DNA from: a virus
Direction: 5' to 3' (one strand)
Virus record (IMG/VR): IMGVR_UViG_3300018077_000015
Coordinates: 1 to 41,406 of that record
Length of the DNA stretch: 41,406 nt
The stretch's first letter is position 1, and every line of letters begins with the position of its first letter. Under the pieces are notes generated by a model. That model saw nothing but the letters and a program-made list of their open reading frames with translations. It made no database searches and was not told the DNA's origin. Below, one piece after another: positions 4,336-32,893 of the stretch. The position numbers were made by a program, and so were the translations under genes.

Positions 4336-4965
4336 ATGCGCCGTGCTGTCCTGTCTGTTCTGTTGGCTGTCGTATTCTATACCACCACCAGTGCGAAACT
4401 CCCTTGGCATGCGGAGAGCATTCGGCCGCTCATGAGTGGCGAGCAAGGCATCTGCACCACCTGGTCGCTCAATCGGGTGAAAGGGTATTGGGTGACAGCG
4501 GCACATTGCGTGGAATATTGGGCAGAGGTTGACGAAGCACTCGTACTCCTGCCAAGAGAGAACCTGCGTATTGCCGGGAAGGTTGCGACAGTAGTCCAGA
4601 AAGATTCGTTTAACGATCTGGCTCTCCTGAGAGCTGATGAGCACGCACCCGCACTGCATCTCGGAAGGTACCCACACGTGGGCGATGAAGTCACAGCATA
4701 TGGGTATCCAGGTGGTTGGGGTGCTCCATTCGCCACATGGCTTAGAGTGAGTAATGCCTACTTTAAGCCTTCTAGCGGGGCACAAGCAAAAATGGTGCTC
4801 CAAGGTACACTCTGGCCCGGGCACTCGGGCTGCCCCCTTCTAGACAGCAAGGCTCAAGTGATTGGGGTTGGACAGTGGCAAGGAAGTGACCGTTGGACCA
4901 ATCTCACCCTTGTGAGTGCGTGGACGGACCTCCATGCCTTCATTGCAGGGTTTGAAGAGGACTAG
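4336..4965 (+). CDS. Exported trypsin-like (S1/DegP-type) serine protease
   Basis: 209 aa with a strong Shine-Dalgarno (AGGAG, 7 bases before the ATG). Signal peptide: RR then VLSVLLAVVFYTTTSA, cleavage likely after Ala20. The catalytic triad is intact: His57 in TAAHC, Asp94 in FNDLALL and Ser164 in GHSGCPL. The length fits a single chymotrypsin-fold domain without a PDZ domain. It would act in the periplasm or outside the cell. Possible roles are envelope remodelling, cleavage of a surface receptor or superinfection effects; the sequence does not decide. Last gene of the plus-strand module; it faces the endolysin gene. Confidence 0.85.
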   Translation: MRRAVLSVLLAVVFYTTTSAKLPWHAESIRPLMSGEQGICTTWSLNRVKGYWVTAAHCVEYWAEVDEALVLLPRENLRIAGKVATVVQKDSFNDLALLRADEHAPALHLGRYPHVGDEVTAYGYPGGWGAPFATWLRVSNAYFKPSSGAQAKMVLQGTLWPGHSGCPLLDSKAQVIGVGQWQGSDRWTNLTLVSAWTDLHAFIAGFEED

Positions 4966-5059
4966 CCAGGGACTTACGTATTCCGTAATTTGACCGGGAA
5001 GGCCGCTGGCAGGCGATTCTAGAAAAGGGCACTCGCGACTATGTTCCCGGAGACTCAGG

Positions 5060-5864: not shown

Positions 5865-6098
5865 TTATCCCCGAAGAGACCAAGAGTTCGTGGGAAGGGC
5901 GGCAGCCTGCGGGCGACGACGTGCTGCTGCGGCATCACCCCGAATCCCGTTGTGGAGTAATTGTTGCTGCTGCCTGGCATCCCCACGTATCCCATTGTTC
6001 CAGAGATTCGGCTGTCGTCGGGCAGCAGCTTGCCGGAGTCCTGCGAGCGCAGGGGATGGGGGCTGGGACGGCGCTGGCAGTGGTCTGTTGACAAACAT
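5865..6098 (-). CDS. Small Ala/Gln/Arg-rich protein with recurrent PxLxGL motif and RGD repeats
   Basis: 77 aa, preceded by GAGAGG 8 bases before the ATG. Residues 16-25 (PALAGLRQAA) match a motif shared with other proteins of this block. Two copies of an NGIRGDA repeat (LWNNGIRGDA at 32-41 and LLHNGIRGDA at 47-56) flank a Gln run. It is very basic and lacks hydrophobic core features, so it is probably unstructured. It lies between the last ejection-type gene and the holin gene. Larger ORFs in other frames here (5666-6094 minus, 5827-6141 plus) lack such support. Function unknown; a minor virion component is inferred. Confidence 0.6.
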   Translation of the reverse strand: MFVNRPLPAPSQPPSPALAGLRQAAARRQPNLWNNGIRGDARQQQQLLHNGIRGDAAAARRRPQAAALPTNSWSLRG

Positions 6099-6152
6099 GA
6101 CTAGTAACCTCTCAGATACGTATCATACCCATTCCGGGTAGACCTGTACCCA

Positions 6153-7241
6153 CTATTCAAGCCCCGAGTAGAATCGACTGAGACCCATGCGTCGAGCGAG
6201 AGCGTAGCGTGCATCGAGACTGCGCGGGGTAGACTGTGGGAGAACTTGACCCCCCCGGAATCCCTCCTCCTCAAGTGCTCGAAGGGTGCGCCCGTATTTG
6301 TCTCCTCGAACAGCTTGGCGTAATCCCTCAAGACTCGGTGTAGGAATTTCCCCTATGGCATTACCAAACTCATCAGTAGAGGGGAAACGTACTGGTCCTT
6401 TGACATGACTACGAATGACAGTTCCTTTACCACTTTTGTACATGTCATTAAGCTGGGCCGCCCGTACCTCGTCTAAGTGCCCCTTAGTCACCCAAGTCGT
6501 CGGTTTATTGCTCCAAAACGGTAGCCCTTCGTCAACCACTCTGGTCACTGGTGTTTCTGTGAGATCCGCCAGTCCCTTCTTGGCTGCGGCCTTTTGCCCC
6601 GCGAGACCAGCATAGGGGCGCAGCCCTTCCAACGCTTCTAGGGTTTTACTGTGTTGTGCTGCTCGCTCCAACGGCCGACGTGCCGATCCAATCACTTTAT
6701 TGACACCAGACTCGACCACCCGGCCTCCGGCCTGTAGCGCACGTGGGGCAAGGTTGGGATTCAGAAGGGCTTCAAGGGTGAGCGCGCCAGGGTGTCCCAT
6801 CGCCAGTCCAGTCAATGCTCCACCAGTGCGAGCAAGACGTGGTATAGCTTGACCCACACGTGCGAGTCCCCTTCCCGCCGCTCCCATTGCTGGACCTAAG
6901 ACGGGAGTAGCTGCGCCCTCAACAGCCCCCAGTCCGATATCCCCCATAACCTCACCTGGAGATGGCGGCTTCTCCTTGAAAGGTTGCGCGGCGAGGGAGC
7001 CAATTCCCCCACCAAACGCCCCATACAGCATAGCGGCCGGAATAGATGCCTCTGGAGCAAGTGCCAGTCCAGCGATAGTGCCAGCCGTGGCCAGTGTGCC
7101 CCGACTGGTCAGGAAGTTCTTGACACGCTCAAGACCTGACACAGGCGGCGGGGGCTCATGTGCGGCTACGGGCTGAAGCAACTCGTCGGGAGAAGCCACA
7201 GTCCGCACTTCTCCCGTTTGCCTGTTTCGATAGGTGGGCAT
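6153..7241 (-). CDS. Putative internal virion / ejection protein
   Basis: 362 aa. Starts MPTYRNRQTGEVRTV, followed by long Gly/Ala-rich hydrophobic stretches at about 48-150 (GTIAGLALAPEASIPAAMLYG, GPAMGAAGRGLARVG) with glycine-zipper spacing, as in membrane-active ejection proteins of short-tailed phages. The C-terminal part is charged. PSLEGLRQAV at about 302-311 carries the recurrent motif. The start shares its A with the upstream stop (TAATG). The call rests on composition and position; no enzymatic motif is present. Confidence 0.5.
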   Translation of the reverse strand: MPTYRNRQTGEVRTVASPDELLQPVAAHEPPPPVSGLERVKNFLTSRGTLATAGTIAGLALAPEASIPAAMLYGAFGGGIGSLAAQPFKEKPPSPGEVMGDIGLGAVEGAATPVLGPAMGAAGRGLARVGQAIPRLARTGGALTGLAMGHPGALTLEALLNPNLAPRALQAGGRVVESGVNKVIGSARRPLERAAQHSKTLEALEGLRPYAGLAGQKAAAKKGLADLTETPVTRVVDEGLPFWSNKPTTWVTKGHLDEVRAAQLNDMYKSGKGTVIRSHVKGPVRFPSTDEFGNAIGEIPTPSLEGLRQAVRGDKYGRTLRALEEEGFRGGQVLPQSTPRSLDARYALARRMGLSRFYSGLE

Positions 7242-8215
7242 TATTGTCCGACCTGTTCCCAGTCACCCAGATTCGATGACTCATCCACACCAGTCTCCCC
7301 CGCGCCCAGATCTACCATGCGTTGACGCAGAAACCTTAGGTTGTCTCGTGTGGCTGCAGCTTTGGCTCGCCACACGTCAGGCTTGTCAGACAGGGCAGGA
7401 ATCTGCTTACGGATACGGTTGGCCTCTGGCTCAGACATCTGAGCACCTGTAACCGCCTTGATCGTAGCATTGGTAAGTGTGGCGGTCTCAGCGGAGAAGG
7501 CGGCAAAGTTTTTATCGACTGAGATACCGGGAATTTGGAGCCCAAGTGCAGACAGTCTTCCCGTTAGTGGGCCAAGACGCCCTTCGACCGCCGGAAGCAG
7601 TGCTTCGAGTTTGTCTAGAGAGTGCGCTGAGGAGTCTGCACCGGCAATCATCTCCTGGGAGCGGCCGAGGAGTCGCTGGGGTGGAGCCAACGAGACCTGT
7701 CCTTGGGCATTGACGGATGGACGGAATCCTCCTGTCGCACCACCGCCGGCTGCCCCGCCGCTGGGTTGCAGGAAGTCCTTCAGACGCTTCATGCGCTCAC
7801 CTTCGACATCGAGCATGCCTCTCGTCTTTGCCTCCTCCTGGGACACACCACTGCGCCCTTGTATCTCAGCAACACGTTGGGCGCTCTCTCCCTGCTGGCG
7901 CCCAGCGGCGAGGCTATACTCTCCTTTGGTTCGTTCAGGAAGAGCAACCTTACGTTCCTCGGCCGCCTGTTGCATCGCGGCAAGTCCAAGGCGTTTGCGG
8001 AGCTGCTGGAATCCTGTCTGTTGCAACTCCTCTCGCGAGGGGATGAAGTACGGGCGATTCAGCCCACGGCCGGATTCGGCGATTCCCTGTTGTGCCCCCT
8101 GGACATCGGATTCGGGAAGGAACTGTGACAGCTCCTCCTCGTCGCCCGTCAGGACATTGCGAGGTGCCCGATACTGCCCTTGGAGAAGTCGTGCGAGTTC
8201 ATCTTGATAGGCCAC
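7241..8215 (-). CDS. Putative internal virion / DNA-transfer protein
   Basis: 324 aa. The N-terminal half is Gln/Glu/Arg-rich and probably coiled-coil; a Gly-rich linker (about 155-165) separates it from a helical C-terminal domain with a DKNFAAFSAETATLTNATIK stretch, TGAQMSEPEANRIRKQIP and LRFLRQRM. This C-terminal pattern recurs in internal or ejection proteins of environmental podovirus-like phages (from memory, not searched). No TM segment and no catalytic motif. It overlaps both neighbours by a single base, indicating coupled translation. Confidence 0.5.
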   Translation of the reverse strand: MAYQDELARLLQGQYRAPRNVLTGDEEELSQFLPESDVQGAQQGIAESGRGLNRPYFIPSREELQQTGFQQLRKRLGLAAMQQAAEERKVALPERTKGEYSLAAGRQQGESAQRVAEIQGRSGVSQEEAKTRGMLDVEGERMKRLKDFLQPSGGAAGGGATGGFRPSVNAQGQVSLAPPQRLLGRSQEMIAGADSSAHSLDKLEALLPAVEGRLGPLTGRLSALGLQIPGISVDKNFAAFSAETATLTNATIKAVTGAQMSEPEANRIRKQIPALSDKPDVWRAKAAATRDNLRFLRQRMVDLGAGETGVDESSNLGDWEQVGQ

Positions 8216-8544
8216 TAGGATCTCCTCTGCCCAAGCCGGAGTTGCCCCTGTATTTTTGGCTGCCCTTGAATTTTGGCTGCTTCCTGAAGTCCCTGCATCG
8301 AGGGGGACATGTAGTCAGTCGTCAGCATTGGTTGTGTCTGGGTACCACGGAGCTGGTTCGATCCTTCCGGCGATCCATGCGCGAGGGCATTGAACTCACT
8401 CTTCGAGACAGGATTGCCGCCTCCATGCGCCAGATACATGTCATACCACCGAGCCCACTCAGGTTGCGTGTCGCCCAGGCTGCGCCCGAAGGTGCCCTGG
8501 ATGTCATCTTCTTGACCGTAGAGTCCGCCCATTCGTAGTGCCAT
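8215..8544 (-). CDS. Small virion-associated protein with PSMxGL motif
   Basis: 109 aa, no recognised family. Middle segment is Trp/Tyr-rich (PEWARWYDMYLAHGGG). Residues 81-90 (PSMQGLQEAA) match the recurrent motif, followed by an IQGQ repeat (KIQGQPKIQGQLRLGQ) and a basic tail. It overlaps its neighbours by one base on each side within the ejection-protein run, so co-translation and co-assembly are likely. Function unknown. Confidence 0.55.
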   Translation of the reverse strand: MALRMGGLYGQEDDIQGTFGRSLGDTQPEWARWYDMYLAHGGGNPVSKSEFNALAHGSPEGSNQLRGTQTQPMLTTDYMSPSMQGLQEAAKIQGQPKIQGQLRLGQRRS

Positions 8545-9071
8545 TAGTAGAGACTCCTCAATCCCGCCAGAGATGGTGACAGTTGTGGAAGGATGCGCGT
8601 GCCAAGTCCTTGTCGCAGTGCAAAGGGACCAGAGAGATTCACTCCTGGCCCACCACCTTCTCCGCCTTCACCGGGGGTATAGAGTCCACTACCTCCACTA
8701 ACGTTGCTGGCATCACCCCCGCCCATTCCCGTTACCGCCGCTTGGAGTCCTGCCATAGAGGGAGATGGGGTCGGAGTGGCTAGTGCCCCAGTCTTTGCAG
8801 CGGCATTAGCATCCATTTGCGCTTTGTCGAGCGCCTGCTGCCCCTGCATATTAAGCTGAGCCCCAAGCAGATTTCGAGAGTAGGCACTTTTTTGCTTGGC
8901 CAACGTTCGGTCTCGGTCCTGTTTCCCCCACTTAGCATTCTGACGATCAGCAGCAGTTTGGTCGTATGCCGGTCTTGGGGGTGTGGGGCTAGACGTTCCT
9001 GTCCCCGGCGCCTGTTGTTGCCACGGCAATTTCTGCCCTTTGGCCCAATTTTTATCGACGATCCCCGCCAC
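8544..9071 (-). CDS. Gly/Gln-rich virion-associated protein with two PSxxGL motifs
   Basis: 175 aa, no recognised family. Low-complexity N terminus rich in Gln, Pro and Thr, a charged helical segment (about 40-90), then PSMAGLQAAV (104-113), a Gly-rich linker, and PSLAGLRSLY as the last ten residues (166-175). Two copies of the same motif in one small protein support a real binding or packaging signal. One-base overlaps with both neighbours. Confidence 0.55.
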   Translation of the reverse strand: MAGIVDKNWAKGQKLPWQQQAPGTGTSSPTPPRPAYDQTAADRQNAKWGKQDRDRTLAKQKSAYSRNLLGAQLNMQGQQALDKAQMDANAAAKTGALATPTPSPSMAGLQAAVTGMGGGDASNVSGGSGLYTPGEGGEGGGPGVNLSGPFALRQGLGTRILPQLSPSLAGLRSLY

Positions 9072-9853
9072 TAGTAGAGCCCCTTTGCACTAATGAGTCC
9101 GAGAAGTGCCTGTGTCTGTGGATTCTGCGCGGCAAGCGTTTGCCCGCGCTGCGTGATGTTACCCTGATACGTCAAGTCCTGAATGTGCTGCTGTCGGTTG
9201 AGATCCTGAATGAGCTGCTCACGGTTGACATCGCCCAACTCTGAGCCCGCTTCTCCAAGAATGCCCGCACTCTGAGCTGACTCAATGCTGGACCCGCCAA
9301 GACCGCGTTCTCCCATCACATTGCGGAGTCCTGTGAGGCTTGCCCGGGCAATCTGCCCCGCCTTGTCTTTGGCACGAGCGAACGTTGCGTCACGCGCCGC
9401 ATCAGCACCAGCATCACCATACGATACAGTGGGAGCACTAGCCCCCGACCCGAGGGCGCCCTGAAGGATCGAAAGACTCTGCGCGGCCTTGTAGGGATCG
9501 AACGTGGACTGACCTGAGTTCGTCAGATTTTGGTACCCATACGAGCCGGGTTTTGTCCCCGCAGATTCTACAGCGGGACCAGGCAATCCATAGGAACCGC
9601 CTACCCCAGAAGAATCGCCAGGGCCAGAAGGGTATTGGCCCACCGATGTTCCTGGCGCTGGTGTGTTGGGATATTGTGTCGAGTACCCAGAAGGCGCTTG
9701 TGCGTTGGGCACTTGTGGTAGTGCAGCCTTATTCACCCCGGCTGATGCCTGGTCATACCGCCATGCCTGATATTCACTATCAGACATCGCCTGACCTGCG
9801 TCAGGGCGCCAAGTCTTTCCTGTGGTAGAGCCAGGAACGGTCATTCCCGCCAT
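9071..9853 (-). CDS. Putative internal virion protein, Gly/Ser/Gln-rich
   Basis: 260 aa. N-terminal 120 residues are Gly/Pro/Ser/Tyr-rich and disordered; the C-terminal part (about 120-250) is Ala/Gln-rich helical. ASLTGLRNVM at 171-180 is a weaker copy of the recurrent motif. Shine-Dalgarno GAGGA lies 7 bases before the ATG. It ends in KGLY, like other short C termini in this block. First gene of the ejection-type run; the 65-base gap upstream holds a small hairpin and a -24/-12-like site. Confidence 0.5.
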   Translation of the reverse strand: MAGMTVPGSTTGKTWRPDAGQAMSDSEYQAWRYDQASAGVNKAALPQVPNAQAPSGYSTQYPNTPAPGTSVGQYPSGPGDSSGVGGSYGLPGPAVESAGTKPGSYGYQNLTNSGQSTFDPYKAAQSLSILQGALGSGASAPTVSYGDAGADAARDATFARAKDKAGQIARASLTGLRNVMGERGLGGSSIESAQSAGILGEAGSELGDVNREQLIQDLNRQQHIQDLTYQGNITQRGQTLAAQNPQTQALLGLISAKGLY

Positions 9854-15683: not shown

Positions 15684-16286
15684 TTACCGTGACGCGGCTG
15701 CCGCTTTCAGCCCTCGCATAGATGCAGGGCGCTCGGGTTTGAGATAGGTATCACCCTTCTCGTTGTAGGTCTGCTGGTAGCGATTGCCCCACAGCCGATC
15801 CCACAGGGTGCGGTTCTCTTCGGGGATGCGCCCCGGAAGAAAGTTTGGCTGCCCGACGGGAGGTTGCTGCCCTGTTCGCGCGCGGTAGTCTTTCTCGGCC
15901 TGGAAGGCTTCCATCTCGTCGGGGTTTTGCCCGTAGAGATCCTGGCCCGTTCGAGACGTGAAGTTACTGGGCGAGCCGCCGATACCCGTGAGCGTCTTGA
16001 GGATGTCACGGGGCCGGCCAATCCGATTCGCCTGTCGCGCGTGCGTCCCCTCGTGGACGAGTGTATTCATCGTCTCTGTGGGGTCTCGCCTCGCCACATC
16101 AGGGTTGACCTGAAGTGATCCGGTGAACGGGTCATACATCCCAGCGAGGCTCGTACCAGAGGGGAGCCCCATTTGTTTCAGTTTGCCGAGTAAGCCCAGT
16201 TCTCGGATGGGAGCAGATGCCACATCTGGCATTTCCTTGGCCAGCCGCTGCCGATAGGGGGTGAGAGAATCGTCCTTATGGGGCAT
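15684..16286 (-). CDS. Zincin-type metallopeptidase (HExxH) with C-terminal PASMxGL motif
   Basis: 200 aa. LVHEGTHARQ carries the HExxH zinc signature, and DEMEAFQAEKDYR downstream offers the third zinc ligand Glu, as in M48/gluzincin-like small peptidases of phages. No signal peptide or TM, so it acts in the cytoplasm or in the virion. The last residues (PASMRGLKAAAASR, 187-200) match the motif seen in the ejection-type proteins, which suggests that the enzyme is carried in the particle. Substrate unknown: prohead processing or peptidoglycan cross-links are options. Confidence 0.65.
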   Translation of the reverse strand: MPHKDDSLTPYRQRLAKEMPDVASAPIRELGLLGKLKQMGLPSGTSLAGMYDPFTGSLQVNPDVARRDPTETMNTLVHEGTHARQANRIGRPRDILKTLTGIGGSPSNFTSRTGQDLYGQNPDEMEAFQAEKDYRARTGQQPPVGQPNFLPGRIPEENRTLWDRLWGNRYQQTYNEKGDTYLKPERPASMRGLKAAAASR

Positions 16287-19935: not shown

Positions 19936-20472
19936 TTAGCTATACCACCACGGCTGCAACGGTTTTCTCGCAGTGAGAATACCAGCGAAGTGCTCAATTG
20001 GACCATTCTCGACTGTCTGAATCATCTGAAACGTCTCCGACACGAAGTCACAATGAATGCGGTACGGGGAAATAGGTGAATCGAGAATCTTGTAGTTCGC
20101 CTGATTGAAGAAGTAGAGTGCCTCCGGGGATAGTGCCCGCGTGTGCGTAGGATCGGCCCATGCCCAGACAGCACTCCAGAAGGGCGACAAGAACTTGAGC
20201 TTCCCACCCGGTTTGAGCACCCGGTAGATCTCTTCCCAGAACTGAAACCACTCCGCTGTCTCACCCTGCTTGCCGATGTGCTCCAGGACATGGACGGCGA
20301 TGGCTTCATCCATGCTGTCATCAGGCAGTGCGATGGGATTCCTACCCAAGCAGCACACGATGTCTGGTGAGAGCGACGAATCCGCATCCAGTGTCACGAT
20401 CTCGGCCGACTCGTCCACGGGTATCAGCTTCGGCACTCGACTACGCCCACAGCCTAGATGGAGGATTTTCAT
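19936..20472 (-). CDS. Class I SAM-dependent methyltransferase
   Basis: 178 aa. Motif I is LHLGCGRSR at the N terminus, the acidic end of beta 2 is VTLDADS, followed by DSMDEAIAVHVLEHIG (motif IV-like) and the YRVLKPGGKLKFLSPF strand typical of Methyltransf_11-type enzymes. Overlaps the glycosyltransferase stop (ATGA) with GGAG upstream. Substrate unknown; pairing with a GT suggests sugar or surface modification rather than DNA methylation (inference). No DPPY-type DNA methylase motif is present. Confidence 0.75.
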   Translation of the reverse strand: MKILHLGCGRSRVPKLIPVDESAEIVTLDADSSLSPDIVCCLGRNPIALPDDSMDEAIAVHVLEHIGKQGETAEWFQFWEEIYRVLKPGGKLKFLSPFWSAVWAWADPTHTRALSPEALYFFNQANYKILDSPISPYRIHCDFVSETFQMIQTVENGPIEHFAGILTARKPLQPWWYS

Positions 20473-21149
20473 GACCGCTTCTCCTCATACGCTGCGGGGA
20501 GATCCGCAAGCTGTGTCTGCCCTTCCATGATTCTGGTAGTCCAGACGCCCTGCTCGTCACGATGGGGAGAGACCCGGTGAATCACGTAATGGTCCGCCCA
20601 GACATCCAAGTCGCACCAGATCTTGAATCCAGCAGCCCTGGCCCTGCGACAGAAGTCGAAGTCGTCACCCCAGACATCAGGAGCCATCTGCCCCAGTCGC
20701 CAGTACGGAGGCTCCATCTTCCTCAGCACGGCCGTCTTGACTAGGAGGCAGCCTGCGCCGGTCGCAAGGGCTTCACTCATACCGGAGTCGCCCGGAAGCA
20801 GTGGCATGGGCCAGAGTGCCCCAGTCGCCTCTTCTCTGTTGTAACGATGGGGAGTATAGGGAATCCTGCGCTGGAGGTAGAGACCCGACACAATATCCAC
20901 GTCTCGCGCCAGCAGTCGCATGAGCGCATCGGGTTGGAACAAGTGGTCATCATCCACATACCAGACCCACTCTGCCCCGACTTCTAGTGCGCGCTCGGAG
21001 ATCATGTTCCGATTGGTGCTGATGACTTGCCCTAACGAGTGTGCGAGTGCGGTGCCCGGTGGACGTGCCACTCGTGACAACGAACTGTAGAACTCCGCAT
21101 ACCGCGCAATCTCTGGACTCGAAATCCCGATAATTCCTGTGACGCCCAT
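20469..21149 (-). CDS. GT-A fold family 2-like glycosyltransferase
   Basis: 226 aa from the ATG at 21149, chosen because GGAGG lies 5 bases upstream; a TTG at 21200 would give a 17-residue longer form without such a site. RNMISERALEVGAEWVWYVD leads to the DDDH motif (metal/UDP-sugar binding), followed by GLYLQRRIPY, ATGAGCLLVKTAV and a WGDDFDFCRRARAAGF block containing the ED/DD-type catalytic acid. This is the layout of short phage GT2-like enzymes. Possible targets: virion proteins, host surface sugars or phage DNA bases. Confidence 0.75.
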   Translation of the reverse strand: MGVTGIIGISSPEIARYAEFYSSLSRVARPPGTALAHSLGQVISTNRNMISERALEVGAEWVWYVDDDHLFQPDALMRLLARDVDIVSGLYLQRRIPYTPHRYNREEATGALWPMPLLPGDSGMSEALATGAGCLLVKTAVLRKMEPPYWRLGQMAPDVWGDDFDFCRRARAAGFKIWCDLDVWADHYVIHRVSPHRDEQGVWTTRIMEGQTQLADLPAAYEEKRS

Positions 21150-21209
21150 CTCACCCTCCCCGGTGTGATGGAGGCGCACAGCCGATGCTATGCGCCCCAA
21201 GTGAACGAA

Positions 21210-25866: not shown

Positions 25867-27168
25867 TTAGAAGTCGCGCTGCACGACGAGTGTCTGTCCC
25901 GTTACGCCATCCCACCGTCCGCATGTGGCCGGCGCCTTGCAGAAGTACTGCATCCGCTTGAAGTAGGTCGCCTCGTAGGCATGGCGAGCCGAGCTGCCCG
26001 TGCCCTCGCGCACCCACACGCTACCGTCCCGATCCATGAAGCGGCCGGGCTCCGCGACGTACCGCTTGAAGCCGGCTTTCTTGGTGTCGAGGAAGTAGAC
26101 CTGATTGAGACCGACCGTCCGAAGCGCCTTGATGGGAATCTCGCCCAGGGTGAGATCACCCTGCTTCATCGCGGCCGTTCCGCCATCAGGTTTCTGTGCC
26201 GCCGCGTCGTTGTAGCGCCGATCCGCATCAAGCAGCTTCACGTACTCACGCCGCACTGAGGGGTGCATGCCGATGAGGTTGATGATGCCACCAAGCTTCG
26301 CGTAGATCACGTCCGACATGCGCTGTGCCAGGTCGAGCGAGAGCGCACCGACTGAGGCCACAATGTAGGACTGAAGCGAGAGTACTGATGTTCGAAGGAT
26401 GCCGAAGTAGTTGTCGCGATTGGTACTGTCATCCACCAGGGCGGGCAGGCCCCAATACGCCTTCTCGTAGCTCGTATCGAGAATGTCTGTCACACCCGAG
26501 TTGGCCGCGTGAACGATGTAATCATTGTCCGCCCAGGCCGCGTTCGGGGTGCTGCCGGTCGTGACATCGGTGCCGTCGCTGTTGACCGCTGTGACTTTCT
26601 CCACATCGGCCCGGAGTACGCCACTGGACGGGTCCACCGCGCCAATGTACATGCCCGTGTCCACGAAGCGGTTGCCGAAGTCGGCGCCGGTGATATTGCC
26701 GGGGGCATCCATCTCCAACGTGGTGTTGCCGGACGGTGTCCCCTCGTTAATGAGCCCCAGCACGCCCCGGCCATCCATGCCAAGCGCCTGATTCTCACGC
26801 CGCGAAATGTCGTCAATCAGACGGGTCTTCTCGTCGGTCATCCCATTGCGGAAGGACGCCTCGGAGCTGACCAAATCCGCCATCGCCTCTTCCGTCATCC
26901 GGATGCGGGCGATCATCTTCCGCATATCGATGCGGCCCTGCGAGTGGGTTTGGTTGCCGGCGGTCGGATACGCACTGTCTTCTCCCGCGAAGAAGGGAGA
27001 GACGTTACGCCCGTGATGATGGACCCACTTGTGGCCGAGTCCACCTTTCCAGTCAACGGCTTCTACCGGGAAGACATCGGCCAGATCGAAACTGTTATTG
27101 ACACCCTCGGAGATGCCTTCCTCGAAGACATCCTTTGCCAGTCCTGAGAGTGCATTGGTATCAGGCAT
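25867..27168 (-). CDS. Major capsid protein (HK97-fold type)
   Basis: 433 aa. It directly follows a scaffold-like gene and is the right size for an HK97-type shell protein. Features include a helical N-terminal arm (residues 1-40), WKGGLGHKWVHHHGR, an MRKMIARIRMTEEAMADLV helix near the E-loop or spine, a long central part with GIINLIGMHPSVRREYVKLL (typical spine/P-domain pattern) and the PIKALRTVGLNQVYFLD strand near the C terminus. No N-terminal protease domain. Strong Shine-Dalgarno (AAGGA, 9 bases upstream). Confidence 0.75.
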   Translation of the reverse strand: MPDTNALSGLAKDVFEEGISEGVNNSFDLADVFPVEAVDWKGGLGHKWVHHHGRNVSPFFAGEDSAYPTAGNQTHSQGRIDMRKMIARIRMTEEAMADLVSSEASFRNGMTDEKTRLIDDISRRENQALGMDGRGVLGLINEGTPSGNTTLEMDAPGNITGADFGNRFVDTGMYIGAVDPSSGVLRADVEKVTAVNSDGTDVTTGSTPNAAWADNDYIVHAANSGVTDILDTSYEKAYWGLPALVDDSTNRDNYFGILRTSVLSLQSYIVASVGALSLDLAQRMSDVIYAKLGGIINLIGMHPSVRREYVKLLDADRRYNDAAAQKPDGGTAAMKQGDLTLGEIPIKALRTVGLNQVYFLDTKKAGFKRYVAEPGRFMDRDGSVWVREGTGSSARHAYEATYFKRMQYFCKAPATCGRWDGVTGQTLVVQRDF

Positions 27169-27182
27169 GATCGGTAATCCTT

Positions 27183-28016
27183 CTATCCCTCAAATTGACC
27201 GCCGTGATCGCGAAAGCTCTGCACCATCGCATCTTCAACGGCCTTGGGGTCTTTGAAGTCAATCTTCCTTTTCCCTTGCGTGACCACCCCGCGATCTCTG
27301 CCGCCGGGGACACGCTTCATCCGATTGACCTCGGTTGATGTCACTGAGCGTCGGGCTGGCTCGAACCAGTCTTCAATGAACCCTGCGGCGACTTCCTCGA
27401 TGAGCTTCGTATCACCTTGCTCGTGCCGCTGTTGAAACTGAGGATCGGACTCAGCTTCGCCAACGTAATACCTAGCCAGTGCCTTCATCTGTCGCGGGCT
27501 GAGGTCGCCACCGAGCTTCTCAGCGATCTTAGAGCCAACGGCATCAATCATCTGTCCGCCGAACCTGGTCCATTCACGAAGTTCGGCTTGCTTGACGATC
27601 TCACCGCTTCCGATTGACCCTAGTAAGCCCTCGAATTCCTCTTCGGAGAGTCCTTCGAGCCGCTTGAGCCTCGGAGAGAGTCCATGGAGAGCTTCCCGAA
27701 TCTGCCGCTGTTCGGCTTCTTCGGGCTTCTCGCCAATGACGGCCTCACGGATGCGACGATCACGGTCACTGTTGGTGCGTTCGAGATCTTGAAGACGCTT
27801 TTCGAGTTGCTGACGCGATTGTCGTTCTTTGTGTAAGTCCGCGAGCATGCCACGATGGCGAGCATCATCACCGGATTGAACAGCGCCGGGTCGCTGGGGG
27901 GATGCTGCCTTCGGGTCTGCTTGTGGAACGGTGCCCTCTACCGACGCTGGCTTCGGATCTCCCGAGGCTGGGGCGGGCTGAGGATCGGCGGCTGGGACGA
28001 CTTCTACTTCAGGCAT
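27183..28016 (-). CDS. Scaffolding protein
   Basis: 277 aa. Disordered Pro/Ala/Asp-rich N terminus (about 1-48), a coiled coil (LADLHKERQSRQQLEKRLQD, LERTNSDRDRRI), a helical middle with LSPRLKRLEGLSEEEFEGLL, and a basic C terminus (NRMKRVPGGRDRG, QGKRKIDFKDP) that could bind the shell. This is the usual build of phage scaffolds, and it sits directly upstream of the capsid gene. AGAGG precedes the ATG by 6 bases. Confidence 0.7.
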   Translation of the reverse strand: MPEVEVVPAADPQPAPASGDPKPASVEGTVPQADPKAASPQRPGAVQSGDDARHRGMLADLHKERQSRQQLEKRLQDLERTNSDRDRRIREAVIGEKPEEAEQRQIREALHGLSPRLKRLEGLSEEEFEGLLGSIGSGEIVKQAELREWTRFGGQMIDAVGSKIAEKLGGDLSPRQMKALARYYVGEAESDPQFQQRHEQGDTKLIEEVAAGFIEDWFEPARRSVTSTEVNRMKRVPGGRDRGVVTQGKRKIDFKDPKAVEDAMVQSFRDHGGQFEG

Positions 28017-28272: not shown

Positions 28273-30714
28273 TCAGGCCGGTCCCTGATTCTGTGCCCCT
28301 TCCCCCTGTCCCCTCGGCTCATTGCCTGTTGTCGCTTCTCGGTTCGAGTTCGCCATGGCAGCCCCGCCGCCTCCCGGTTGTCCCGGTGGGGATTGCCCAA
28401 GCGGGGGCTGCATAGCCATCGCCATTGCAAGGTCAATCTCCGCCAGATGAGCTTCGAGGAGCCCCTCCGCCTGCGGTTTCATGCGGAGCAGTTCTCGAAT
28501 GCGGTCACTATTCGCCCACTTCATGAACTCCTGACGATGGACTACCGGGTCATACCATTTCTTGAACGCCAGGGGAGTATGTTTCAGCGGTGAAGGAGGC
28601 TCCGCAATAGGTGGAGGCATCGGCGGTTGCATCCCTGGTACTGGGGGCTGTGACGCAAACTGCGTTTGTTGCGCCGCAAATTGCATCTGTTGCTGTTGTT
28701 GCTGTTGCTGGAACTGTCCATACTCCTGATTCGCCACATTCATAGACTGCTCGACAGCCTGCGGATTCATCACCCATTCCTCGAACGCCTGCTGCTTCTG
28801 AAGCGCCGCCTGCACATGCACATCGAGGGTGGGCACCAAGTCGGTGAGCCCAAAGTTTGTTAGAATGGCGTACTTCTGGTCGGGGTCAGCAGGATTGATG
28901 AGCCCGAGCTGATTGGCATGCTCAATGGCGGCTCGCTTGCCAAGTGCGGTCTTCGGGACGTTCGAACCGTCCTCCACAACCGTTGTAATTGAGCCCTGTA
29001 ACTGTGCCTTCTTGAACGTCTTGAAGGTGTAGGTGCGGGCGGGGGTGAGGACGGCTTTGGTGCGCTCGTCAGGTCCAAACTCTCGCTCCAGCTCAAGTGC
29101 AAACTTGAACCACTCTTTGTAGGCGTTACCCCGAGACTGGAAGACACCCGAAAATCGGGATTGGCTTCGCTCAACAAGCAACTGAAGCGCACTAAACGCT
29201 TCGACCCCAGTAGGCTTTGCTCCCTTGATGATATCGAATGTCCCAGCCAGCTCCTCGATGTCTTTGAGATACTGTTCTCGGAGCGTAAATAGTGAGCCAT
29301 GCGGTCCCTCTCCTGCAATACGCTCCGGCTTGGCGCCCGGGGCGACGACATGTGAATCCCACTCGACCATCAACCCCGGCTCGCCCGTGATCTTGGAGAC
29401 ACTGGCGCCCTTGGGGATGAACCAGAGCGGATTGGCGACCCGCTGAATGATCATCTGGAACATGGAATCGAGCTGATTGAGCTGGTCCTGCTTCTGGATG
29501 ATGCGATCTATGGGACCAGTGGCGAGAAGTCGCCCACCCACGTGCTCGTAACCTGAATGAGCGAAGGTGAATAGACCATTTCCCTCGGCATCACGATACG
29601 GCAGCGGCCCTGGAATGTTTTCGGTCTCCTCCAGGTGCAGGACTTTCGGGTCCGAGTCACCGGCGATACGGACCACCAGCCCGTCTGGGTACTTGTCGGT
29701 CGGCTTATACCACAGTTCATACTCACTACAGCCCTCCTCATAGTTGCCGGTGGAGGAGCCCTCCGCCCAGTACACCGGCGCGATGCCGAGATCGTTCTGT
29801 GTGGCGAGACTCTTGAAGATTTGGAGCGAGCGGTCAGCGGGCGACTTTGAGAAGCTCAGCTTCCCCACCATGTCCTTGAGTTGCGGGTGCCCTTCGTAGT
29901 ACCGCTTTGTTCTCCAGCGCAGGCGGATGATGTAGGGCAGATCGTCAAAACGGGAATACTGGTTGGGGAAGGCGACTTCGAATGGAGACAGGGGCAGCGT
30001 CACACCCTTCCCCTTGGGACGGCGCTCAATCTTGGGCTCCCCAGCTTCGCCAAGGGCGGGTGTGAACTCTGTGCCGCCGCAGTCGGGGCAGACTGGCTGT
30101 GCGCCTGCCAGCTTGTCAGACGTGTACTCATTCCCGCAGCCCATGCACTGTTCTGTGCTGACTTCGAGAATGCCGTACTTTGGATCGTAGTCCCAGAAGG
30201 TGTGATAGAAGATGTTCCCCGTGACACACAACCACCAATCGCCGTCAGTCGTCACCCCATCCATGTTGTGGAGATCGTGCAGGAGGGGCGCGAGCTGATC
30301 CGCTGTGGAGGCTGTTGACACATTGTCCGGGTCTTGTCCATTGGGACGATTGTTCACGCCAAGCTTGATGGACGTGAACATGGCTCGAATGGCCTGCACC
30401 GTCTCACCGCACTTGTTGGTGACCGGGCGCGGAATCCATTTCGCCTGGCGTATATCTTTCCAGGCGCCATCGCGCGAATGGTATGTAATCCACTGGCGAC
30501 CGATCACGTAGAAGATATTCCGCAACCATTGCCGCTCGAACACCCAACGCTCAGAGAAGGACTCTTTCTTGCACACCTCGAACAGGTCCAGGAGTTCCTT
30601 ATCATCGTAGGTACCGAGTGCGTCGGTCTGGGGTTCGCCAGTTTTCTTATCGACAGGTGCGCCCGCCTCTAGCGCCCCGGCCTTGAACACGTCATTGAAG
30701 TTGTCGTTCGCCAT
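28273..30714 (-). CDS. Portal protein (large, with internal Zn-ribbon)
   Basis: 813 aa, the usual partner between the terminase and scaffold genes. The N-terminal region has VFERQWLRNIFYVIGRQWIT, common to P22-type/large portals. A CMGCGNEY...CPDCGG zinc ribbon is inserted at about 190-220. NQLDSMFQMIIQRVANPLWF and FSALQLLVERSQSRF are core helices of portal wings or stem. A Gln-rich stretch (about 685-705) and a Pro-rich tail follow at the C terminus. Twelve copies would form the DNA entry ring. Shine-Dalgarno AGAGGA 3 bases before the ATG. Confidence 0.8.
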   Translation of the reverse strand: MANDNFNDVFKAGALEAGAPVDKKTGEPQTDALGTYDDKELLDLFEVCKKESFSERWVFERQWLRNIFYVIGRQWITYHSRDGAWKDIRQAKWIPRPVTNKCGETVQAIRAMFTSIKLGVNNRPNGQDPDNVSTASTADQLAPLLHDLHNMDGVTTDGDWWLCVTGNIFYHTFWDYDPKYGILEVSTEQCMGCGNEYTSDKLAGAQPVCPDCGGTEFTPALGEAGEPKIERRPKGKGVTLPLSPFEVAFPNQYSRFDDLPYIIRLRWRTKRYYEGHPQLKDMVGKLSFSKSPADRSLQIFKSLATQNDLGIAPVYWAEGSSTGNYEEGCSEYELWYKPTDKYPDGLVVRIAGDSDPKVLHLEETENIPGPLPYRDAEGNGLFTFAHSGYEHVGGRLLATGPIDRIIQKQDQLNQLDSMFQMIIQRVANPLWFIPKGASVSKITGEPGLMVEWDSHVVAPGAKPERIAGEGPHGSLFTLREQYLKDIEELAGTFDIIKGAKPTGVEAFSALQLLVERSQSRFSGVFQSRGNAYKEWFKFALELEREFGPDERTKAVLTPARTYTFKTFKKAQLQGSITTVVEDGSNVPKTALGKRAAIEHANQLGLINPADPDQKYAILTNFGLTDLVPTLDVHVQAALQKQQAFEEWVMNPQAVEQSMNVANQEYGQFQQQQQQQQMQFAAQQTQFASQPPVPGMQPPMPPPIAEPPSPLKHTPLAFKKWYDPVVHRQEFMKWANSDRIRELLRMKPQAEGLLEAHLAEIDLAMAMAMQPPLGQSPPGQPGGGGAAMANSNREATTGNEPRGQGEGAQNQGPA

Positions 30715-31078: not shown

Positions 31079-32626
31079 CTACACATAAGAAGCGAAGAAA
31101 TCCCCTACAGGGTAGCCGATCTCGTTCGGTTGTAAATCTTTCTCAGTGTCCTGCTTGTTGAAATCCCGCACGCGCTCAATGTCCAACTGGGTGCGCTCGT
31201 CAAGGGCGTCCCAGCGGCGCTGCTGAGCATCGGTCAGCACATTCTCGGTCGCTTTGGGTAGCTCCGGCCATGCCATCATGGCATAACGGGACGCATCAGG
31301 TAGTTCGTCGTTGATCTTGAATACTTTCTCATCGCGCTTCTGCCCATCGGCCGAGTAGTTGTCTGCGTAGCGATAAGACCGAAATTGTTCCACAGTTTTC
31401 GGGCAGAGGTGCGTGGCGAACCAGAGTTGCTTCGTGTAGAGCCACGACTGGACGCGCTGAATGCCCACTTGGTGCTTGTTCTCAGCCGCAATCACACCGA
31501 TTCCTTGTAGGGCGAACTCTAGTCGGAGCTGGGCCTCATTCTTCCCTGCCGCCCATTTGATATTCGCGAATCGCGAAGTGTGGAACTTCCCAGTGATATT
31601 CGTCAGATGTGACGATATAGCTGCATGACGTTCTAGATACTCGCCAATAATGACGAGTCCCTTGTGCGTGGCCACAATCAAGACTGCGCCGAAGGGATGG
31701 TCGGCCCCGGAGTCGAGCCCAATGATGACCGGGCGACTGGGGTCCATGCTGGGCCACTCGGGGATGAACGTTTTCAACTCCTCATCGTTGAGGATATATC
31801 GTCCAGGCAACAAATCGGCATAGATGGAGCCTGTGAAGTTGACATCCTCTCCCTCGTATTCGGCTGCGAAGGTGTTGTGCGGCATGGTCGCCCGTGCCTC
31901 TTCAATCTCTGCCCGCATCGCCGGATCGACTTCGAATCGCGGATTCTCAATCGTCTTGTATTTGCGCGCCCAGTACCCTGGCCTTTTCTCGATCAGTGCA
32001 GGGACCATGAACCGCTTGTAGCTCCAGTCATAACCCGCCGGAGACGTTGTGGCGAAGGCGATGCCGCGACTGATGGTCAGTGTTGGTCGCAAGACATCCC
32101 ATGCGCGCTCAGCAATGAACGCTGCCTCGTCAAGCCATGCCCAGTCAATCTTTGGGCCTCGGGCACGTTCTGGATCATCAAGTGAGCGGAACTGCACGAG
32201 ACTATCATTGATGAGTTTGAGCGTCAGGCTCCCGTCTTTCCAGCCATTGCACCAAGCCGGCGGAATGAGTCGTAACAGCGTTGGCATTGTGGCATCTTCG
32301 AGAATCTTGAATGTCGGCCCGCACACCCATCCAACGGTATTAGGGATTGTCATCTCCTCCCGAGCGGCATGAGCGCCAATGAGCGACTTCCCAGACTGCC
32401 TCCCCGCACGCAGCATAAATCTCTGAAAGATTCTAGGGGCGGTATGATTTGAAAGATGTTCGATGCCGCACTGGCAGCGGTAGATGCCTGTCCCGTCCAT
32501 TGAACCAATCTTCTTGCACGAGAGACAAAAGCGCAGACGACGGGCCGCCTGAAATGCCTGCTGATCTTTTTGGTACAGAAGGGTCTTATCGAGATCAACA
32601 CCGCAATCAGGGGGAAGATTCGCCAT
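31079..32626 (-). CDS. Terminase large subunit (TerL) with N-terminal zinc finger
   Basis: 515 aa from the ATG at 32626, which overlaps the stop of the small membrane gene (TAATG); a TTG ten codons upstream is less likely. C34LSC37...C51QC53 is a zinc-binding insertion before the motor. Walker A AGRQSGKS is at 74-81, and Walker B DWAWLDEA at 161-168 has the catalytic Glu. The nuclease domain starts near IIGLDSGADHPFG, with further acids downstream. The enzyme packages DNA by ATP hydrolysis and cuts the concatemer. Confidence 0.9.
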   Translation of the reverse strand: MANLPPDCGVDLDKTLLYQKDQQAFQAARRLRFCLSCKKIGSMDGTGIYRCQCGIEHLSNHTAPRIFQRFMLRAGRQSGKSLIGAHAAREEMTIPNTVGWVCGPTFKILEDATMPTLLRLIPPAWCNGWKDGSLTLKLINDSLVQFRSLDDPERARGPKIDWAWLDEAAFIAERAWDVLRPTLTISRGIAFATTSPAGYDWSYKRFMVPALIEKRPGYWARKYKTIENPRFEVDPAMRAEIEEARATMPHNTFAAEYEGEDVNFTGSIYADLLPGRYILNDEELKTFIPEWPSMDPSRPVIIGLDSGADHPFGAVLIVATHKGLVIIGEYLERHAAISSHLTNITGKFHTSRFANIKWAAGKNEAQLRLEFALQGIGVIAAENKHQVGIQRVQSWLYTKQLWFATHLCPKTVEQFRSYRYADNYSADGQKRDEKVFKINDELPDASRYAMMAWPELPKATENVLTDAQQRRWDALDERTQLDIERVRDFNKQDTEKDLQPNEIGYPVGDFFASYV

Positions 32627-32763
32627 TACGTATCGTCCCCGACCTTCACGATCCAATCAATCACGTAGATCACGACAAGTAGCGCTAGGACGAGGAGAAT
32701 GACTGCGCCCATGATGAACCTAGCGAGCCGCCGCGCGAAGGCCGCGTAGAGATGGGCGATCAT
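32626..32763 (-). CDS. Small single-pass membrane protein overlapping DUF6496 gene
   Basis: 45 aa: MIAHLYAAFARRLARF, one hydrophobic helix of about 20 residues (IMGAVILLVLALLVVIYVID), then WIVKVGDDT. GGGAG is 3 bases from the ATG, and the stop overlaps the terminase ATG. Its first 44 bases overlap the end of the upstream gene in another frame. The basic N terminus and single TM suggest an inner-membrane micro-protein; role unknown. Confidence 0.55.
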   Translation of the reverse strand: MIAHLYAAFARRLARFIMGAVILLVLALLVVIYVIDWIVKVGDDT

Positions 32764-32893
32764 GTACTCCCTTACGCTTCTCACTCAGCATGATAGCGAC
32801 CGCCTGTTTGCGCGAGGTCACCTTCCTGCCGGTCTTCGAGCCGGAGTGGAGTGACCCGCGCTTGAACTTGTGCAGCACTTCTTGGTAGGGCAC
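32720..32893 (-). CDS. DUF6496-like small basic protein with C-terminal PSLRGLR motif
   Basis: 57 aa from a GTG right after the TAA of the gene upstream. VLHKFKRGSLHSGSKTGRKV followed by TSRKQAVAIMLSE is the DUF6496 signature of small phage proteins. The last residues (RPSLRGLRAAAR, 46-57) carry the motif that also ends or sits inside the ejection-type proteins and the metallopeptidase, which argues that the frame is real and that it joins the same assembly. Very basic; a DNA-binding or virion-packed protein is plausible. Confidence 0.6.
   Translation of the reverse strand: MPYQEVLHKFKRGSLHSGSKTGRKVTSRKQAVAIMLSEKRKGVHDRPSLRGLRAAAR

Follow-up and report, generated by a model that had tools for sequence, protein, structure and literature searches.

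How a podovirus chooses the proteins that it packs and ejects is largely an open question, and the locus at 5865-9853 raises it in a concrete form: why should proteins that are otherwise unrelated carry the same short peptide? The window, by which we mean the whole 41,406-nucleotide stretch that was analysed, is a 41.4-kb virus record with the gene order of a short-tailed phage (terminase, portal, scaffold position, coat and tail genes), the tail genes being followed by a run of small proteins with the lysis cassette at its end. Genes were called with a simple codon-usage script, by which some starts may be wrong and some small genes may be missed. Our analysis confirmed, at the level of sequence, that a 10-residue helix-like peptide is common to seven otherwise unrelated late proteins of the window and to dozens of proteins of its relatives.

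The motif has the consensus [PA]-[SA]-[LM]-x-[GAS]-L-[RQK]-x-[AL]-[AVY]. The earlier note had reported its recurrence in at least six proteins, and all eight peptides quoted there were found at the genes named for them, on the minus strand, as are all the copies described below. PALAGLRQAA (6024-6053) lies in a 77-amino acid ORF (5865-6098) which has a weak coding signal and was missed by the codon-usage gene caller; the strongest evidence for its being a gene is the motif itself. The same ORF also contains a near-repeat, NNGIRGDA/HNGIRGDA. PSLEGLRQAV (6309-6338) lies in a glycine/alanine-rich, putative membrane-active ejection protein (ORF 6153-7241) and has a counterpart, PAFKGLQDAV, in the related record G001 (45704-46912). 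PSMQGLQEAA (8275-8304) belongs to ORF 8215-8544, while ORF 8544-9071 carries two copies, PSMAGLQAAV internally (8733-8762) and PSLAGLRSLY at the C-terminus (8547-8576); a C-terminal signature ending in Tyr like that of PSLAGLRSLY was also found in L047, L054, L067, L082 and L042. The ejection-operon protein W7241 (7241-8215, minus strand) is without a strong copy in the window, and the G003 protein in its position has an N-terminal ASLAALKNLT.

The range 5865-9853 first given for the feature does hold these copies, but the feature is not confined to it. ASMRGLKAAA (15696-15725) is located near the C-terminus of a zincin-type peptidase (HEGTH; ORF 15684-16286) at 15.7 kb, and PSLRGLRAAA (32726-32755) at the C-terminus of a DUF6496 protein (ORF 32720-32893) encoded beside the terminase at 32.7 kb; in relatives the motif is present at the same two outlying sites. 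Three copies had been described as C-terminal, and they do fall at the exact end of the protein (PSLAGLRSLY), 3 residues from it (ASMRGLKAAA) and 1 residue from it (PSLRGLRAAA). The G002 homologue of the DUF6496 protein retains SLAGLEQAA. A low-confidence structure model of the zincin predicts that its motif-bearing tail is disordered. PHROG, Pfam and PDB searches with the small carriers gave no matches save DUF6496 and a sub-threshold DUF6782 for the zincin, and nothing on DUF6496 was found in the literature searched, of which coverage was partial. One further candidate, PSLQGLKRTS at 4937-4966 on the plus strand, was rejected as out-of-frame and probably due to chance; it overlaps the 3' end of a trypsin-like peptidase gene (4336-4965) whose product has an N-terminal signal-like stretch.

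When each window protein was shuffled 1000 times, PS[LM]xGL was expected 0.041 times and observed 5 times, and [PA][SA][LM]xGL[RQKA] was expected 0.071 times and observed 7 times; this test is post hoc, and the relatives supply an independent one. In a six-frame scan of the window, the seven accessory copies took the top ranks. Since the pattern was read off window sequences, we trained a profile on the window only and then ran it on relatives, which were gathered by terminase, coat and tail-hub searches and include many fragments. At a score of at least 14, this profile gave 25 matches in 59 relatives, compared with a single match each in shuffled and in reversed proteins; at the same threshold control phages gave 2 in 78 kaa versus 19 in ~300 kaa of relatives. 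Leave-one-genome-out profiles, from whose counts the W9071 family (described below) was left out, gave 40 matches at a score of at least 13 versus 5 in reversed and 3.2 in shuffled proteins. A frozen profile, fixed ahead of the final search for new records, gave 11 matches (score of at least 14) in 37 new records versus 1 and 1.2 in controls, and the trained profile had 0 matches in 78 kaa of six other, unrelated phages. By both the window shuffles and the leave-one-genome-out counts, motif density is thus far higher than in shuffled proteins. Relatives also retain the motif at matching gene positions, including cases in which the remaining protein is unrecognisable. Of the records from relatives, many of which are fragments, over half lack a strong copy, and among the relatives' matches PWFQALQEAS (L042) and PWLRALQESA (L082) belong to a different shared motif. 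Searches found no cultured relatives of W9071, of the adaptor W16639 or of the tail hub, and a search of genome contigs found no host or prophage.

Most copies fall at one of three recurring sites: next to the terminase, in the interval from the adaptor W16639 to the tail hub, or following W9071 in the putative ejection operon. With matches picked by a self-trained profile, 20 of 61 copies were C-terminal versus 6.6 expected, an enrichment of about threefold, and the N-terminus was not enriched among the same matches (6 versus 7.5 expected). All 26 self-trained matches in six near-complete genomes, a count that includes the W9071 family, were on the late strand (57 versus 30 kaa). Zincin homologues carry the motif at opposite ends, C-terminal in the window and N-terminal, as PALEGLLNIF, in L047.

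The eighth quoted peptide, ASLTGLRNVM (9314-9343), had been taken as a weaker copy. It is present, but it is not a loose peptide; it forms part of a long conserved helix in W9071 (9071-9853, minus strand), which has ~50 family members, is better conserved than any other protein in the putative ejection operon, and may be gp14-like in position and shape. AlphaFold predicts a helical hairpin for W9071 (helices 148-183 and 189-256, mostly pLDDT 77-91), and in this model the motif-like segment falls just ahead of the hairpin turn. The gene stands before the putative ejection genes in relatives. That W9071 is a true homologue of T7 gp14 is unsupported, the sequence and fold tests having failed: W9071 had no PDB fold match, the gp14 family PF24072 matched none of 33 W9071 members while matching T7 gp14 itself, and hhalign of W9071 against the gp14 family returned a probability of 0.1%. 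We noted that a C-terminal tyrosine ends nearly all proteins of the W9071 family (~50 homologues) as well as the W8544-like proteins.

Encapsulin cargo-loading peptides are short, often C-terminal, and bring unrelated cargo to the shell. The suggestion that the window motif is a loading or docking peptide, originally drawn by analogy with these, has partial support and stands as the best available explanation, but the analogy is weaker than that with the T4 capsid targeting sequence (CTS). The motif differs from encapsulin peptides in sequence and setting, and the window is without an encapsulin system. The CTS is the nearest working analogue, although the motif is not a member of it. It is the sole conserved part of diverse small T4 internal proteins, is also found on Alt, and loads its carriers into the prohead core (PMC3012670, PMC5694885); it is an N-terminal propeptide that is cut off by the prohead protease (PMC5694885). 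Here too one short peptide is common to diverse proteins, but unlike the N-terminal CTS its copies are C-terminal, internal or N-terminal, and unlike in T4 no prohead maturation protease was recognised. In T7, ejected gp14 consists of two antiparallel helices whose turn is bound by short helices of gp6.7 (PMC11784390). W9071, a predicted antiparallel helical hairpin whose gene is first in the putative ejection operon, may resemble gp14 in place and shape, whereas gp6.7 is one small protein and the motif has many carriers. In a structural model of P22, the ejection proteins sit on the scaffold helix bundle, at its inner end (PMC12005531). The late-gene order of the window is similar to that of P22 (gp7/gp16/gp20), and P22 proteins gave no strong motif match in a profile scan. 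To our knowledge, no shared docking peptide has been reported for the P22 ejection proteins gp7, gp16 and gp20, and we found no report of a similar shared peptide in the literature searched, which was covered in part.

On balance we think it somewhat probable that the motif is a short-helix docking peptide which recruits internal or ejected proteins to one common receptor. Pro-Ser would cap a short helix, on which the small residues at positions 2, 5 and 9 would form one face and Leu/Met at positions 3 and 6 the next, and in the particle under assembly this helix would pack against one helical partner common to all the carriers. From the T7 gp14/gp6.7 and P22 scaffold models we infer, by analogy, docking onto the scaffold or onto W9071: the likeliest partner would be either the inner end of a scaffold bundle, as proposed for P22, or a ring of W9071 hairpins, in the manner of T7 gp6.7 and gp14. 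By the former analogy the candidate receptor is the product of the scaffold-position gene (27183-28016, minus strand) between portal and coat, which is kept in 34 records and gave no family match. W9071's own helix would bear the same face as the peptide, and the accessory proteins so recruited beside it would be the peptidase, the DUF6496 protein and the disordered proteins of the ejection operon. Docking would occur during head assembly, and the recruited proteins would then exit with the DNA.

The same helix could act after injection rather than in head loading, as an assembly motif of a trans-envelope ejection channel that links the ejected proteins to one another or to W9071. The concentration of carriers in the putative ejection operon is consistent with this, as are the key positions common to the motif and the W9071 helix and the T7 precedent of gp6.7 helices attached to the gp14 hairpin within the ejected channel (PMC11784390). 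We nevertheless consider this reading rather unlikely, since the small peptidase and the DUF6496 protein, encoded beside tail genes and terminase, are not obvious channel parts.

Agreement between the copies of one genome bears on the nature of the partner. Each motif column was hidden in turn while matches were picked, with the self-trained profile, and the result was compared with permuted copies. Between different proteins of the same genome, copies agreed at position 2 (Ser/Ala; p 0.001-0.007) and position 5 (Gly/Ala/Ser; p 0.001-0.016), and no agreement was found at positions 4, 7, 8 and 10. Agreement restricted to these two positions is what would be expected of contacts with one co-evolving partner. 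Position 2 of the W9071 helix covaried with the accessory copies (8/1/2/13, p 0.0005) and ranked 1 of 1785 columns from 11 core proteins, phylogeny being controlled solely by this comparison with other columns and genome relatedness only in part; position 5 covaried more weakly (p 0.019, rank 36). Set 2 had too few informative genomes for the covariation to be replicated (2/2/1/5, p 0.5), and we therefore regard it as suggestive only. Two other columns of this receptor search with p <0.001, adaptor W16639 residue 55 (position 2, p 0.0006) and W11972 residue 534 (position 5, p 0.0003), are not trusted because too many columns were tested. It is improbable, in our judgement, that the peptide is instead a host-directed signal, binding a host protein or membrane so as to target phage proteins, late or injected, within the cell. 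A peptide that is short, often terminal, helix-like and borne by late-strand genes would suit that role, and a host-specific partner could likewise yield within-genome flavours, but agreement at positions 2 and 5, both among the copies of a genome and with W9071, points to a partner encoded by the phage itself.

That the copies spread by duplication of gene ends, without shared function, is more improbable still. Their carriers had been described as otherwise unrelated, which holds for most of them (34 motif-masked proteins formed 29 BLAST clusters, and masked homology to a window carrier was seen in just 5 of 37 matches) but not for all: W32720 and G002_13543 are homologous, as are the W8544-like C-termini, and in these descent has a basis. 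Codons for residues common to the copies mostly differ, however, and agreement restricted to two positions argues against a copied DNA segment, which would match everywhere. Least likely of all is that the motif is a chance pattern of Ala/Leu-rich helical sequence. In favour of that reading, self-training overfits: it also drew ~50 sites from reversed proteins (from a conserved core block), and its counts, which carry no weight by themselves, were for that reason dropped as evidence of significance. Against it, the held-out, leave-one-out and frozen tests all exceeded shuffled, reversed and natural controls, and they refute it.

Returning to the docking peptide, we tentatively raise a wider reading, which may hold but which we would not presume: that the motif is a lineage-wide podovirus docking code, in which one helix, also present in the core ejection protein, adds varied payload, its contacts drift in step within a genome, and loss occurs in lineages whose ejection protein is a single giant one. 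The records with an ejection-operon ORF of at least 1400 amino acids (L046, L072, L073, L076, L079 and L089) have 0, 0, 1, 0, 0 and 0 strong copies, respectively, as if fusion took over from tagging; the rank correlation is weak (p 0.06), with phylogeny uncontrolled. Should the peptide prove transplantable, with genome-specific flavours, it would allow a direct test of packaging and make the ejected proteins of uncultured phages predictable from sequence alone, and it might act as an address tag by which foreign protein is loaded into particles.

Several further observations were made in the course of this work. A methyltransferase-like gene (19936-20472) and a glycosyltransferase-like gene (20469-21200) sit inside the structural module, and neither had homologues among the relatives examined. 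In some relatives, homologues of the portal (28273-30714) contain a conserved segment resembling the motif, ASLMALREQYLKDI-like, which may be coincidence. Finally, a second short motif, approximately GPLPDPxWDxYFQxLQExG, was seen in small, largely unrelated-looking proteins, including that of ORF 8215-8544 in the window and, in relatives, those at L047 16026-16508, L090 12794-13180, G001 6371-6799, G006 26273-26611 and G009 31941-32789.
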